The translations under genes and the position numbers were made by a program. Under the pieces are notes generated by a model, which searched no databases, had not been told where the DNA came from, and saw only the letters and a list, made by a program, of their open reading frames with translations. Below, one piece after another: positions 11,760-51,281 of a stretch of 64,000 bases of DNA (positions are counted from its first letter, which is position 1; the number at the start of each line of letters is the position of its first letter). This stretch comes from Salinarchaeum sp. Harcht-Bsk1 (GTDB taxonomy: Archaea; Halobacteriota; Halobacteria; Halobacteriales; Salinarchaeaceae), in assembly GCF_000403645.1 (NCBI RefSeq), contig NC_021313.1, positions 1,569,014-1,633,013 of the forward strand, written 5' to 3'.

Positions 11760-11871
11760 TGGCAGGGAATTGCGGGCCGCGGGCAAAAGCGAGGCGGTTC
11801 GCGGCTTTGGGATGGTGTCGATGTAGGAACGGTTGTCGTGTCGTGAACCGCTACCGCGGGCACAGCATCCT

Positions 11872-12329
11872 CGAAAGCCCCCGGCCGCTCGTGCCCGCTC
11901 ACTCGCTGCGCGCGGCCTCGCTATCGCTCGGCCGTGCTACCGTCGTGACCGAACACGAGCGGTCGGCCCCTTTCAGTCCCGCCCGCCTCACACCTCCCCA
12001 GCCTTCTGCGCTGCTCACTCAGTCGCTGACGCTCCCTCGCTCCGCTGCTCGGCCCTCGCACGATGTCTGCGATTGGCTGCTCGCCCGCTTCGGGGCTCGC
12101 AGCCACCGTCGGAGCAAGCTCCGACGAGGTTCGCCTCGCGCTGCTCGGCTCACCATCGCGAGCGCGCGCCGGCGTGGTCCACGTGGTATAGCGCACTTCG
12201 GAAAACCATCCGGGCGGGACTGGAAGGGGCCGACCGCTCGCCGATTGAAACGAAGCAAGCACTGGACCGAGCGGAGCGAGGGAAGCGCGCAGCGAGTTAG
12301 AATCGGCGAGCGGGAGGGGGCTTCCAAGG
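11872..12329. repeat. dispersed palindromic element, copy A
   Basis: A noncoding block of about 458 bp lies between thrC and the TrmB-type regulator. Its ends are CGAAAGCCCCC on the left and GGGGGCTTCCAAGG on the right. Inside, 29-nt inverted arms lie at 11956-11984 and 12212-12240; they begin CGAGCGGTCGGCCCCTT on the left and pair with one mismatch. The core between them carries CCTCCCCAGCCTTCTGCGCT and a hairpin GTCGGAGC-AA-GCTCCGAC (12108-12125). The same blocks recur in copies B, C and D. The long open frames crossing it are arginine-rich and not conserved in frame. Confidence 0.9.
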
Positions 12330-12379
12330 CGGTCGTTGGTGTGCAATCGACGATAGAGGATTGCAAATTAAGCCAACTC

Positions 12380-26431: not shown

Positions 26432-26521
26432 GGACAGTGGTATCGTGTGGCATTCTAAAAGCGTGTCGCCGCTAAGGGACTCGGTCGGTGGGAGACGAAC
26501 GAGGCATTCAACGCAGACCCC

Positions 26522-26935
26522 CGAAAGCCCCCGAGCGCTCGAGGGCTGCGGCTCGCTGCGCTCCTCAGTTCGCAGTGCTCCTTGCGGTGCTTACTTCGCC
26601 TCGCACCGTCGAGCGCTCGGCCCCTTTCGAAGCCCACCCAAACAGCCTCATACCTCCCCAGCCTTCTGCGCTACTCGCCCTCCGGGCTGCGTTGCTCGGC
26701 CCTCGCACGGTGTCGCGCGACTGGCTGCTCGCCCGCAAGGGGCTCGCAGCCGACGCGAGCGCGCGCCGGTGGGGCCAACCGGGGTTTCGCGAACCTCCCG
26801 AAGATCCACCGGGTGGGACTGGAAGGGGCCGACCGCTCGTCGATCGTAACGAAGCAAGCACTGCAGCGAGTGAGCACCGCGAACGAGCGAAGCGCGCAAC
26901 GAGTTAGGATCGACGAGCGGTCGGGGGCTTCCAAG
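26522..26935. repeat. dispersed palindromic element, copy B
   Basis: This copy of about 414 bp is oriented like copy A. Its ends are CGAAAGCCCCC and GGGGGCTTCCAAGG. The inner arms lie at 26610-26639 and 26811-26839; the left begins CGAGCGCTCGGCCCCTTTCG and the right ends GGGGCCGACCGCTCG. The core retains CCTCCCCAGCCTTCTGCGCT and GCTCGGCCCTCGCAC. In place of the long core of A it has a small hairpin GCCC-TCC-GGGC. It lies between divergent genes, the small helical gene and prs. Confidence 0.9.
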
Positions 26936-27046
26936 GCGTCTGCAGCGGTTTGGAAAGCGGCCCGTCTACAATAACCCGAACCCAGGACCGAACGATCTCC
27001 TCGCGGGACCGAAACACGTTTTCACGGGCCGAGCGCACCACGGACC

Positions 27047-27972: not shown

Positions 27973-29334
27973 TCAGCGATGCCGAGGCGCGGCGCGATCG
28001 ATCGCGACGTCGCCGACCCGGTCGGCGGTCGTCCAGCCCGACTGGTCGGCGTCGAGTGGGCTCCCGGCGGCCTCGCAGTCAGCCGGCGAGACGTCGAACG
28101 TCGCGGCGTGGGTGCTCGCACTCCAGGGACGCGGCGTCGTCGGCGTCTCGGTGTAGGCGATCGCCGCCGCGCGAGCCGCCGGACCGCCCGCGCGCTCGAC
28201 GGCGTCGGCGAAGGCAGTCGCGTCGAAGGGCGCGGGAGCGGCCGCGTTCCACGTCCGGAGGACGGCCTGGAACGTCGTCTCACCGCCGGAGGCCGCGCGG
28301 ATCCGCCGGTCGAGCGCCGCCACGACGAGCGCGCCGGTCCGGTACTGCGCGTCGTCGGCCCAGGTCGACGGATCGGCGAGGACGACCTCGGGCGAGTCCT
28401 CCCCGACCCCGCGCTCCAGGACCTGTCGGTAGGTCGGGAAGTCGATCGCGCCGCGCTCGAAGGCCTGCGTGAGGGCGTAGTACTCGGCGGTGGCCTCGAG
28501 GAGCCACTCGGTCGCGGCCGTGGTCGCCGTTCGATCCTGCCGGGTGTGGACGTACTCGTGGACCCAGATGTTCGTCGGCGCGGCGAGCGCGGCGTCGTCG
28601 TTGACGCGGGCGTCCGGACCGAGGGAGAGCCCGCGGTGGGCCCAGCACGCGCCGTCGGTCGGCGCGACGAACACCGTGACGAGGTCGCTCCGGCCGCCGA
28701 CATCGAGGTGCTCGCTCGCCGCGGCGAGCGAGTCGAGGATCCGGTCGGGAGCGGTCGAGGGCGTCGCAGCAGCGGGAACGACGAGCCGCACGGTCTCGGC
28801 GTCAACCCGCCGTTTCGCGATCGCGTGCTCGCCCAGACAGACGAACTGCTCGCCGGCGATGCCGACGCCCCGAACGGCCGCGCGGCGGTCGATCCGTGGC
28901 TCGGTGCCACGGTAGCGCCAGCGCGTGTGCGTCCGCGGCCGCAAGCAGAGCGCCCAGTCGTCGGTGCCGGCGCCGTAGGTCGACGGATCGTCGGCGGTGA
29001 GCGGCTGGCGGCAGATCACCGTCGCGCGGTCGCCCGAGCCGTCCCACTCGAAGGCGGGGCCGTCGACGCTCCCCTGCCAGGTGTAGCCGCCGACGTCGGA
29101 GCGGTCGAACCCGTCGGTCGCGACCACGGAGACCGTCGGCCGCTCGATCCAGAACGCGAGTTTCGAGACTGCGTCTGGGATCTCGTAGACGATCGCGACG
29201 TCCACTGCACCGTCGACGTCGCCGTCGCGGTAGACGACCCGCTCGACGACCCGGGGCACCGCGTCGCCCACGGACTCGGTCCCCGCGGCCGCCGGTCGGG
29301 CGATCGCTCGACCGGGGCCGGATCGCCCTGCCAT
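27973..29334 (-). CDS. HEYVH zinc-peptidase-like paralogue lacking a signal peptide
   Basis: The 453-residue protein contains IWVHEYVHTRQ followed 16 residues later by the glutamate of WLLEATAEYYA, the gluzincin zinc-site pattern seen in M1/M61-like peptidases. An N-terminal beta domain with RTHTRWRYRGTEP precedes it. It parallels the next upstream gene along its whole length. It lacks that gene's signal peptide, C-terminal CARDB-like domains and membrane anchor, so as annotated it would stay in the cytoplasm. This suggests a shortened duplicate or a start missed upstream. The ATG at 29334 follows a possible TACAAT box. Confidence 0.7.
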   Translation of the reverse strand: MAGRSGPGRAIARPAAAGTESVGDAVPRVVERVVYRDGDVDGAVDVAIVYEIPDAVSKLAFWIERPTVSVVATDGFDRSDVGGYTWQGSVDGPAFEWDGSGDRATVICRQPLTADDPSTYGAGTDDWALCLRPRTHTRWRYRGTEPRIDRRAAVRGVGIAGEQFVCLGEHAIAKRRVDAETVRLVVPAAATPSTAPDRILDSLAAASEHLDVGGRSDLVTVFVAPTDGACWAHRGLSLGPDARVNDDAALAAPTNIWVHEYVHTRQDRTATTAATEWLLEATAEYYALTQAFERGAIDFPTYRQVLERGVGEDSPEVVLADPSTWADDAQYRTGALVVAALDRRIRAASGGETTFQAVLRTWNAAAPAPFDATAFADAVERAGGPAARAAAIAYTETPTTPRPWSASTHAATFDVSPADCEAAGSPLDADQSGWTTADRVGDVAIDRAAPRHR

Positions 29335-29546: not shown

Positions 29547-31676
29547 TTACCGGCTCCGGGCGAACAGGAGGAGAGTGGCGCCCGCCAGCAGTGCGATCAG
29601 ACCGGTGGCGAGCGCGACAGGGGGAATCTCGTCGATCGACTCCAGCACGCTCCCCTCCTGAACGTCGAGCTGGATGGTGAGCGATCCCGCGGACACGTTG
29701 TGCCGACCGGCTCGGTCGAACCCGGTCGAGATCTCGACCGTGCGATTGGCACCGGGCGTCAGCTGCACGCGCTCGGTGCCGACGGGCTCGCCGTCGGCGA
29801 AGACGGTGACGTTCCCGTCGGCCGGTCTGCTCGTCGGGTTCGACACTGACATCCTGACGTCGACGGCGTCGCCGGTCGAGGGCGACCTGGGGCTCACCCG
29901 GAGTGACGTCACGACGGGATCGGCGGGCTCGCGAACCCGGACCGTGCGCGAGACGTCACCGACGACGATCCGAACGTCGCCAGCCGTTCCGAAACGGTGG
30001 GAGAGGGAGACGGTCGTCGTCTCGCCCGGTTCGAGACTGCCGGACGAGACTGCCCGCTCGCTGCCACCGACGAACAACGTCGACCGGTACTGGCCGGAAA
30101 CGTTGCCGACGTTCGCGACCTCGACCTCCGCCGCGACGGCCTCGCCCACGACGGTCGTCTCGGGCAGTTCGCCGTCGCGGTAGGGACCGATCACGGACAG
30201 CGCCGGCTCCGAGACCACGCGATAGTCGAAGCGGGGAAGGTCGCTGCCAAAGAGCCGGCTGTGAGTCGTCCGGTCCCAGGTCGAGGGCGTGGCATCGGTC
30301 CGGGTGTAGGCGCTGACGAACTCGCGGACCGACTCGTCGCCGAGCCGTTCGGCCGCTGCTTCGAGGTCGTCGGCTCTGAACGTCTCCGCGCTGTTCCAGT
30401 CCGACATGATCGACTGGAAGGTCTCCGAGCCGTTGCTCGCAACGCGGAGTTCGCGATCGATCGCCCCGACGACGAGCGCCCCTTTCTCGTACTCGGCGTC
30501 GGTGTCCGCCCAGGTCGATCGGTCCGTGAGGACGGCGTCGGTCGCGGGCCGCATGGTGCCCCGTTCGAGCACGTTCCGGAAGGTCGCGTAGTCGATCCGC
30601 CCCTCCTCGAGACTCAGCAGCGCGGCGTAGTAGTCCGCGCTTCCCTCGACGAGCCAGTGGGCGTCGTCAGCGACGGCGTCGCCGTCGACAGTGTCGGCGT
30701 CGCGGTACTGCCGCGTGTGGACGTACTCGTGGACCCAGACGTTGACGGCCGCGTCGACGGGCTGGTCTGCCGCAACGCGGGTGTCCGCGCCGATCGCGAG
30801 CCCCGGCGGCCCCCAGTCGAACTCGCCGGTCGGTGCCGCGATCAGCACGACCTCCTGGTTGCGATTACCGAAGCGAAGACGATCGCTCGCGTACGCGACG
30901 GAGTCGAGGATCTCCGTGGGCGCCGAGGCCGGGTCGGCAGCGTCGGGCACGACGAGCGTGAGAACCTCGCCGCCGACGGTCCGGGATCGCGTCGAATGCG
31001 GCCCGAGGAAGGCGAACCGCTTCCCAGCGTATCCCTCGCCGGCCGTGGTGAGCCGGTACTCGAGCCCGGGGTTCTCGAAGCGGTAGTTCCACTGGGTGCT
31101 CGTCTGGGGACGCGTGACGATCGCCCACTCGCCCGTCCCGCCGACGAAGCGCTGATCTGGGCCCTCTGCCCGGAAGCTTTCGGTGACGGGGTGCCGGATC
31201 GTGACCGTCCCGCCGCCGCCCGACTCGTCCCACTCGAAGGTCCCGTCGTTTCGGGTGAACCCGTCGGTACCCACGACGTCGTACTGCCCCTGTGCGATCG
31301 AGAACGTGAGCGAACCGACCTCGTCGGGAATCTCGTAGGTGATCCGGGCCTCGACGGTGTCCGGCTGTGCGGGCAGCAGGTCGTACTCGACCCGCTCGAC
31401 GATCGGATCCGACGACTGCGCTGCGCTGGCGTTCGCGATCGAGGTGCTCTCGCCCACCTCGCTCGTCGACAGTGCGCCACCCGCATCGAGGCTCGACGCG
31501 GTCGCGGCGTCGGACGCTGGCCGAACCGGCGTCGGCGGGCCGGCGTCGGGTCCACCGGCGATGCCGGCGACTGGAGCGCCGGCCGTCGTGCCGACGGCCA
31601 GCCCACCGACCAGCGCCATCGTCAGGAGACAGAGGGCTAACAAGCGCCTATCGAGGGACTCGGCGCGCCGCTGCAT
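29547..31676 (-). CDS. secreted, membrane-anchored HEYVH zinc peptidase
   Basis: The 709-residue protein has an N-terminal signal (LLALCLLTMALVGGLAVGTT, about residues 11-30). An N-terminal beta domain comes next, then WVHEYVHTRQ with its zinc glutamate in HWLVEGSADYYA. Two Ig-like/CARDB-type domains follow (about 480-660, including VEVANVGNVSGQYRSTLFV and VRMSVSNPTSRPADGNVTVF). It ends with a membrane helix VALATGLIALLAGATLLLFA and RSR. It probably acts outside the cell, anchored in the membrane. The substrate is unknown. It is tandem with the shorter paralogue. Confidence 0.85.
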   Translation of the reverse strand: MQRRAESLDRRLLALCLLTMALVGGLAVGTTAGAPVAGIAGGPDAGPPTPVRPASDAATASSLDAGGALSTSEVGESTSIANASAAQSSDPIVERVEYDLLPAQPDTVEARITYEIPDEVGSLTFSIAQGQYDVVGTDGFTRNDGTFEWDESGGGGTVTIRHPVTESFRAEGPDQRFVGGTGEWAIVTRPQTSTQWNYRFENPGLEYRLTTAGEGYAGKRFAFLGPHSTRSRTVGGEVLTLVVPDAADPASAPTEILDSVAYASDRLRFGNRNQEVVLIAAPTGEFDWGPPGLAIGADTRVAADQPVDAAVNVWVHEYVHTRQYRDADTVDGDAVADDAHWLVEGSADYYAALLSLEEGRIDYATFRNVLERGTMRPATDAVLTDRSTWADTDAEYEKGALVVGAIDRELRVASNGSETFQSIMSDWNSAETFRADDLEAAAERLGDESVREFVSAYTRTDATPSTWDRTTHSRLFGSDLPRFDYRVVSEPALSVIGPYRDGELPETTVVGEAVAAEVEVANVGNVSGQYRSTLFVGGSERAVSSGSLEPGETTTVSLSHRFGTAGDVRIVVGDVSRTVRVREPADPVVTSLRVSPRSPSTGDAVDVRMSVSNPTSRPADGNVTVFADGEPVGTERVQLTPGANRTVEISTGFDRAGRHNVSAGSLTIQLDVQEGSVLESIDEIPPVALATGLIALLAGATLLLFARSR

Positions 31677-35175: not shown

Positions 35176-35258
35176 GACAATCGGAGTGTTGGTGGAGAGT
35201 GGCATGGAGATGAGGTGGGTACGGTCGGTTGGGGTTGCGACCGCATCAGCAGCCGCCT

Positions 35259-35762
35259 TCGGAAGCCCCCTCCCGCTCGCGGCACCTCACTCGTTGCGCT
35301 CCTCGCTCGCAATCGCTCGCTGTGGTGCTTACGTCGTGACGTGCCGCGAGCGGTCGGCCTCTTCCGGAGCCCCACCCGGAGAATATGTCGGATCTCCCGA
35401 TACCTCGGCGGGGTGCAGTGGCGCGCGTTTCGCGGCGGACCGGAGGTCCGTCGCGTAGCGTGCGAGGGACGACCGAGCGTAGTCCTCGTGAGCGAAGCGA
35501 ACGAGGGCCCGGAAGTCGCAGCCCGCGAGCGAAGCGAGCAGGAACGTCTTGCGGCGCGAGGGAGGAGGTTGGGGAGGACTGAGGTGCGGTTGCGGGGGGA
35601 CTTCGAAAGGGGCCGGGCGTTGACGGGCTACGCCCGTCTGCTCGGGAGAGCTTCGCTCTCCCGGCGGTTGGTCGTTCCCGGGCGACGTAAGCACCGCAGG
35701 CGAGCGTCGCGAAGCCGAGGAGGCAGTGAGCCCCGGAATGTCGAGCGTCCGGGGGCTTTCGG
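35259..35762. repeat. dispersed palindromic element, copy C
   Basis: The longest and most diverged copy is about 504 bp and is oriented opposite to A and B. Its ends are TCGGAAGCCCCCTCCCGCTC and GGGGGCTTTCGG. The left arm CGAGCGGTCGGCCTCTTCCG (35347-35377) faces a degenerate right arm with CGAAAGGGGCCGGGCG (35594-35622). Extra mini-hairpins are inserted: CGGACC-GGA-GGTCCG (35436-35450), GACGGGC-TAC-GCCCGTC (35622-35638) and CGGGAGAGC-TTC-GCTCTCCCG (35643-35663). It lies about 110 bp upstream of ileS. Confidence 0.8.
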
Positions 35763-35815
35763 GGATCCGAAAGCCGAGGAGTCAACCCAGTGAATACTGG
35801 AACCGAACTCGAATC

Positions 35816-42786: not shown

Positions 42787-42882
42787 GCGAACGGAGGATT
42801 TCGCGGGTGAGTGGTAGTAGTATCGGAACCGGATTTGGCCGGAATAATCGGAGGCCGGGGATCGGCAGGAGCATCGAACTGC

Positions 42883-43359
42883 TTGGAAGCCCCCTCCCGC
42901 TCGCCCGATTACACTCGCTGCGCGCTTCACTCAGTCGCTAGCGCTCCCTCGCTGCAGTGCTTGCTTCGTCTAAACGGGCGAGCGGTCGGCCCCTTCCAGT
43001 CCCACCCCGTTGATTTTCCACAGGTTCGCGAAACTTCGGTGGATCACGTCGGCGCGCGCTAACCGATGGCTGCGAGCCCCGAAACGGGCGAGCAGCCAAT
43101 CGCAGACATCGTGCGAGGGCCGAGCGATGCTGGACCGGAGGTCCAGCAAGTCTGAGGCTTCGCCTCAGGCAACGCAGCGGTGAGCGAAGCGAACCCGAGC
43201 AGCGCAGAAGGTTGGGGAGGTATGAGGCGTCTGGGTGGGCATCGAAAGGGGCCGATCGCTCCGGGAAGCCCGGCGGAGTAAGCACTGGAATGAGCGAACG
43301 GAGTGAGCGAATGAAGCGCGCAACGAGCCGCGCGACTGGAGCGATCGGGGGCTTTCGAA
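42883..43359. repeat. dispersed palindromic element, copy D
   Basis: This copy of about 477 bp is oriented opposite to A and B. Its left end TTGGAAGCCCCCTCCCGCTC is almost the reverse complement of the right end of A. The inner arms are at 42979-43007 (CGAGCGGTCGGCCCCTTCCA...) and 43233-43261. The core, read in reverse, keeps the CCTCCCCAGCCTTCTGCGCT-type block and the CAATCGCAGACATCGTGCGA block of A. It bears two inserted hairpins, CTGGACC-GGA-GGTCCAG (43130-43146) and CTGAGGC-TTC-GCCTCAG (43152-43168). It lies between divergent genes. Confidence 0.88.
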
Positions 43360-43451
43360 GGTCGCCGAAACCCAACTTCTGATTCGCTCATACTCCTCCC
43401 CGTTCTGCCGACCCCCACAGAACCAAATGGCCACTCGCCGACGGAATCGCC

Positions 43452-50855: not shown

Positions 50856-51196
50856 GGGCGGTTTCCGGAAGGGCTGGCGCTTCAGCGTTCCGGTACGGGG
50901 CGTCCGTCGTGCATTTCCGCTGGGAATCGAGTCGGCCGGAGTACCGATCGACGAGGCGGCGCAGCCGCTCGCGAACTGTGGAAGCCATATGCGAGGGCAA
51001 GACGCTCCGTCTTGCCGCATTTCGAGCGATCCCGAACGGGAGCGCCCGTCATGCGAGGGAAGGGATTTGAACCACGGGCCAGACGGTCCGGGCTGCGGTC
51101 TCGCTCGCGCTCGACCGTTCCGGGCTGCGATCTGGTCTGGTTCAAATCCCTTCCGCCGTGCAGTCGTGCGCTCGCGGTGTCGCTCGCGCACCACAT
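50856..51196. other. gene-free stretch with scars of the tRNA-Leu 3' end
   Basis: A 23-bp copy of the tRNA-Leu 3' part, ATGCGAGGGAAGGGATTTGA plus ACC, lies at 51051-51073. An identical copy is in the tRNA itself (51196-51218). An inverted partial copy GGTTCAAATCCCTTCC is at about 51139-51154, and a shorter ATGCGAGGG is at about 50989-50997, followed by the hairpin GCAAGAC-GCTCC-GTCTTGC. The partial copies fit repeated integration or excision at the tRNA end. There is no integrase gene. Confidence 0.7.
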
Positions 51197-51281
51197 GCGA
51201 GGGAAGGGATTTGAACCCTCGGACCCCTTCGGGAGCGGATCTTGAGTCCGCCGCCGTTTCCGGGCTTGGCTACCCTCGCAC
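51197..51281 (-). tRNA. tRNA-Leu (anticodon CAA)
   Basis: The minus-strand sequence folds with acceptor TGCGAGG paired to CCTCGCA. The anticodon arm is GCGGA-CTCAAGA-TCCGC with anticodon CAA. A long variable arm (CCCGAAGGGG) is typical of leucine tRNA, and the T-loop TTCAAAT closes the fold. It has no intron, and its 3' end is duplicated just downstream. Confidence 0.93.

Follow-up and report, generated by a model that had tools for sequence, protein, structure and literature searches.

A haloarchaea-wide family of paired, folded palindromic units, one copy of which is block A of Salinarchaeum sp. Harcht-Bsk1

Block A and its repeated unit

The window, the whole 64,000-nucleotide stretch of Salinarchaeum sp. 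Harcht-Bsk1 DNA that we analysed, contains a noncoding block, A (11872-12329), in which two units that we call U face outward around a spacer, M, in the order U(-), M, U(+). The left unit lies at 11861..11993 (-), with core arms at 11872-11985, and corresponds to a match of covariance model R1 at G000:1580874-1581006:- (101 bits, E 3e-21; G000 is the host genome), and the right unit lies at 12203..12337 (+), with core arms at 12211-12329, matching at G000:1581216-1581350:+ (138 bits, E 3e-30). Spacer M occupies 11994..12202 (+); blastn of M against loci of its own genome finds a part of it (M 1-145) in other copies, its orientation fixed relative to the right-hand U. The inner arms (11956-11985 and 12211-12240) pair along 30 nt, a single mismatch excepted, while the outer ones (11869-11913 and 12285-12329) show 76% complementarity. 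Folded as single-strand DNA, block A reaches -155 kcal/mol, a z of -9.1 relative to dinucleotide-shuffled sequences.

By blastn, block A has three significant relatives in the window, B (26516-26938), C (35249-35767), and D (42882-43363), with E from 1e-19 to 1e-43. The units of copy B are at 26512..26648 (-) and 26802..26944 (+), scoring 91 and 152 bits with R1; those of copy D are at 42873..43016 (-) and 43224..43369 (+), with 143 and 109 bits. Copy C has a left unit at 35248..35386 (-), with 130 bits, and a partial right unit at 35660..35755 (+), which covers model positions 28-126 (34 bits, E 4e-5). A preliminary description of this DNA had given inner arms of 29 nt with a single mismatch, a core found at three more places, and a shared orientation of A and B with C and D inverted; the arms are real and one nucleotide longer, the orientations agree, and the copies are related by alignment. 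What it overlooked is the actual module, a U of about 125-145 bp that also occurs singly, block A being an inverted pair of it around M.

Elsewhere in the window, a tRNA gene lies at 51196-51279 (-), where the host has no U; in G001, a genome of the same genus, a U (L072 4018-4156) and the orthologous tRNA region are about 140 nt apart, and the sequence past this U is unlike that of the host. A 72 bp direct repeat (3133-3204 and 3233-3304; 90% identity, 100 bp apart) and two diverged paralogous stretches (28296-28786 and 30443-30957; 67% identity) are also present.

Across the 3,255,260-base host chromosome, model R1 gives 106 matches to U, which fall into 78 sites: 28 pairs, every one of them outward-facing, and 50 solos. 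The units of eight compact pairs found in other genera adjoin each other back to back, their model ends 0-9 nt apart. An alignment of the genome-wide matches gives U the order GGGTGGGACTGGAAGGGGCCGACCGCTCG, variable stem, ACGAAGYAAGCACYG, GA-rich inner hairpin, GCGCAGCGAGT, second stem half, and CGAGCGGGAGGGGGCTTCC. Three G-tracts, GGGTGGG, GGGG, and GGGGG, vary hardly at all and could possibly form a G-quadruplex. In twelve of the host's own copies, additional arms of at least two forms are found close to one part of the inner region. At L127, L133, L136, L148, L160, L172, L185, and L197, the three bases after CTTTC vary between elements, but the two ends of any one compact element agree in them, as though one U had served as template for the other.

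Fold, strand, and gene context of the unit

Pairing was assessed on an alignment built without structure, with 500 shuffles and a partner slid by one column as controls. Paired cells amounted to 94%, covariation was 0.371 compared with 0.125 in shuffles, and double-sided changes that keep pairing occurred in 160 cells compared with 56; sliding the partner by one column lowered pairing to about 40%. Over all U pairs, G.U (G.T in DNA) outnumbers A.C by 40 to 8, and the variable stem has 19 G.T and 3 A.C where column composition predicts 33 and 27. Since correction of a double-stranded cruciform or palindrome would be symmetric, this asymmetry suggests that selection probably acts on the G-rich strand as a single strand, be it RNA or DNA. 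At 14 orthologous positions in the two Salinarchaeum species, identity is 71.5%, barely above that of paralogues (68.4%), and 62 double-sided changes keep pairing, compared with a null mean of 34 and a maximum of 46 in 300 shuffles.

Gene context was taken from a simple codon-based gene call, by which 77 host sites were classified as 41 tandem, 18 divergent, and 18 convergent gaps. The distance from a U end to a facing start codon is usually 71-132 nt and to a facing stop codon 20-92 nt. Genes facing a U have an AT peak 26-30 nt ahead of the start codon, which places U directly upstream of the core promoter and outside the leader. Solo units in tandem gaps are oriented with transcription 22 to 4 in the host, and no such bias was seen in a sample from genus g6 (n=20). 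The preliminary description had placed all four copies upstream of genes, none between convergent ends, and proposed that they are kept near promoters. In the window this is correct, as all four gaps are tandem or divergent, but genome-wide it fails, about a quarter of the sites lying between convergent genes. A role of U as a general promoter element was rejected because convergent sites are common, yet the ends that face start codons do adjoin core promoters.

Distribution, stability, and mobility of the family

With a threshold of E <= 1e-6, U was matched in 223 of 293 sampled Halobacteriales genomes, representing 67 of 81 genera. All 27 positives of a phylum-wide sample belong to Halobacteriales, and none of the sampled genomes outside this order had a match. 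Bacterial loci with a common 17-mer gave zero covariance-model matches, as did U in a phage collection, and a plasmid collection held U in two haloarchaeal plasmids. Rfam offered no match to U at the gathering score and no plausible weak match, the sole match in the window being a tRNA, and the literature searched by words and sequence strings, mainly open-access papers, held no account of the family. The family is apparently so far undescribed, in line with the earlier statement that no named family with this layout was known to the describer. In genus g6, where two genomes have more than 100 copies each, U is extended by another hairpin domain on its 5' side and by a tail in which a 57-bp sequence with TTTATAA is repeated in tandem. 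At one g6 locus (L264 1628-1794), these repeats stand at the U 3' end, and that 3' end starts each repeat unit.

Among 24 U sites examined in G001, about nine are syntenic with a host U. At four others (L064, L068, L070 3661, and L081), one or both flanks lead to host U sites and are joined differently, which marks rearrangement breakpoints at U; the rest are without a U counterpart in the host regions examined. Since the Salinarchaeum copies are diverged, the host itself shows no recent burst. One candidate for a clean empty site (G000 661395-661503, compared with G001 L082 3977-4173) was rejected as more likely a deletion remnant of U. Presence and absence of U also differ at orthologous sites in g6, where target duplications were unreadable because the intergenic sequence is too diverged.

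The mobility of the family is shown by comparison of genomes in genus g36. The U-M-U elements of L304 and L307, from two species, are 93% identical over 329 bp between unrelated flanks; the element is about 320 bp long and ends in TAGT...ACTA, about 40 bp beyond U. L304 also has 70-bp direct repeats (732-801 and 1255-1324; 94% identity) about 50-80 bp from the element on either side. Model R1 finds two units each in L309, L310, and L311 and none in the corresponding empty loci. These three elements are enclosed by inverted flanks, CGCGGCC..GGCCGCG, GATCGACGC..GCGTCGATC, and GGTTGCGGG..CCCGCAACC, respectively, of 7-9 bp in L309 and L310. In L314, the orthologue of filled L311 in another species, GGTTGCGGGCCCA runs uninterrupted into TGGGCCCACAACC, and its length equals that of the joined L311 flanks; the insertion lies exactly at the palindrome dyad, with no target duplication and no base lost. 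The remaining two g36 sites gave near matches, CGCGGCC-AGA-GGCCGCG and CGATCGACGCAC followed directly by CGCGCCGATCG. Insertion at a palindrome dyad is thus shown in one genus, for three copies and cleanly for one, and is inferred for other genera; inverted flanks were not in excess around the U pairs of the host genome. The three g36 sequences suggest a target set by DNA shape and not by sequence. The preliminary description, which had proposed a covariance model and a comparison with empty sites, left the choice between a miniature mobile element and a structured RNA or DNA element. The covariance model recovered the family from haloarchaeal genomes; mobility is borne out by the unrelated flanks and the empty site, structure by covariation, and a classical element with target duplication is contradicted by the L311/L314 pair of this one genus.

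Flanking proteins of about 70 U copies include no common family, insertion sequence (IS), or transposase-bearing relative, consistent with the earlier remark that no transposase is nearby. A linked protein was rejected as well, the flanking proteins clustering only as housekeeping genes of close relatives. The Y1 transposase (PF01797) has 0 matches in G000 and G001. Across genomes, U occurs without Y1 in G000, G001, G006, G010, G033, G034, G040, and G042, and Y1 without U in G002, G011, G012, G015, and G054. RAYT/IS200 was rejected as mobiliser, Y1 being missing from the host and its sister and not co-occurring with U.

Interpretation and relation to known systems

Our reading, probable if by no means certain, is that block A belongs to a family of non-autonomous mobile elements of palindromic (foldback) type that spans the haloarchaea; its members are made of folded U pairs and, in one genus, sit at palindrome dyads. 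The folded U, probably in the form of single-stranded DNA, would be recognised by an enzyme supplied in trans, which would insert the element at a hairpin or an extruded palindrome, either in the loop or at the dyad. Such insertion would nest palindromes within palindromes, and M at the U/U dyad of Salinarchaeum may be one instance. The copies would then stay in intergenic gaps and act as breakpoints for ectopic recombination. More tentatively, and with considerable doubt, the family may stand for a class of mobile DNA, order-wide in range, that recognises the shape of DNA, the folded element being inserted without scars at dyads by an undiscovered haloarchaeal enzyme and giving nested palindromes. 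Against a mobile element, syntenic Salinarchaeum units keep their pairing despite sequence drift, which is not expected of an inert insertion. The restriction of the dyad evidence to one genus, the lack of excess inverted flanks around host pairs, the searches that yielded no mobilising protein, and the divergence of the host copies also weigh against this reading.

The main rival is a structured RNA. Transcription of U from the G-rich strand would yield a product that acts in cis or in trans, for instance at the 3' ends of transcripts or immediately ahead of promoters, and U would have spread because a useful module was duplicated. This is rather unlikely in our judgement, but it accommodates the covariation, the excess of G.U over A.C, the extra covarying hairpins of 12 own-genome copies, the 62 double changes that preserve pairing at orthologous positions (34 in shuffles), and the orientation of solo units with transcription; in g6, moreover, a conserved 5' motif is preceded in most copies by a TATA-like box, at a distance of about 16-27 nt. 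However, tandem, divergent, and convergent gaps are all occupied, the orientation bias is missing from the g6 sample, the 0-9 nt between units of compact pairs in other genera leave no space for two promoters, Rfam has no match at threshold, and an excess of G.T over A.C is also expected of single-stranded DNA.

REP/BIME sequences, and REPINs with their RAYT, consist of a palindromic unit, solo or in inverted pairs, in about 100 intergenic copies. U resembles them in being palindromic and intergenic, with 50 solo sites and 28 inverted pairs, but is about five times longer, has internal loops, and resides in a host without RAYT/Y1. It is quite improbable that U marks chromosomal sites of REP/BIME type, which selection would keep at fixed places and to which a nucleoid or topology protein would bind. 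Copy number, intergenic position, inverted pairing, the many sites common to the two Salinarchaeum species, and the invariant G-tracts would all fit, whereas the missing TnpA_REP/Y1 protein in the host genome, the strong presence/absence differences between species, and the precise insertion of a whole element (L311/L314) would not.

MITEs and foldback elements are short and ORF-free, with long inverted repeats, to which the inverted U-U pair and the lack of a linked ORF family correspond. A classical MITE moved, with target duplication, by the DDE transposase of a resident IS would likewise explain the inverted terminal repeats, the absence of an ORF, and the many copies. We consider it very improbable, as the clean filled/empty pair from one genus has no target duplication, each terminal repeat is itself a folded palindrome, and the flanks of about 70 copies share no IS or other protein. 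Chance likeness of GC-rich haloarchaeal intergenic DNA, suggested by the GC-rich sequence of U with its GCGA-type repeats, is excluded by covariance-model matches down to E 5e-34, by covariation exceeding all 500 shuffles, and by the failure of the slid controls.

For the mobile, dyad-inserting element that we favour, the closest known system in behaviour is that of the small mobile repeats SMR-A (HqIRS42, 43, and 55) from Haloquadratum walsbyi, which are about 110 bp long and transposase-free, have inverted terminal repeats, cause no target duplication, and are mobilised in an enigmatic way; their target is the near-terminal palindromes of PATE/IS605 elements (PMC3119063). Both are haloarchaeal and transposase-free with inverted terminal repeats, and the U elements of g36 also share the lack of target duplication and the insertion within palindromes. 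Compared by their published description, U elements differ as pairs of a folded unit of 125-145 bp that measure about 320-480 bp, lie in gene-flanked intergenic gaps, and extend throughout the order. The PATEs of Haloquadratum are palindromic, transposase-free, and IS605-related, without terminal inverted repeats or target duplication (PMC3119063). A U element is likewise palindromic, transposase-free, and without target duplication, but it has long terminal repeats, formed by the outward U pair, in a host without the Y1 transposase. The best reading of these analogies would be a REPIN/MITE-like form combined with SMR-A-like targeting.

The unit occurs in the majority of the haloarchaeal genera sampled and numbers about 100 copies in several genomes, yet it has no Rfam entry. 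Its filled and empty sites are a ready set for finding the machinery of hairpin-targeting integration. The family would account for nested palindromes and for some rearrangement breakpoints, and it may inform on the unexplained SMR elements of Haloquadratum.
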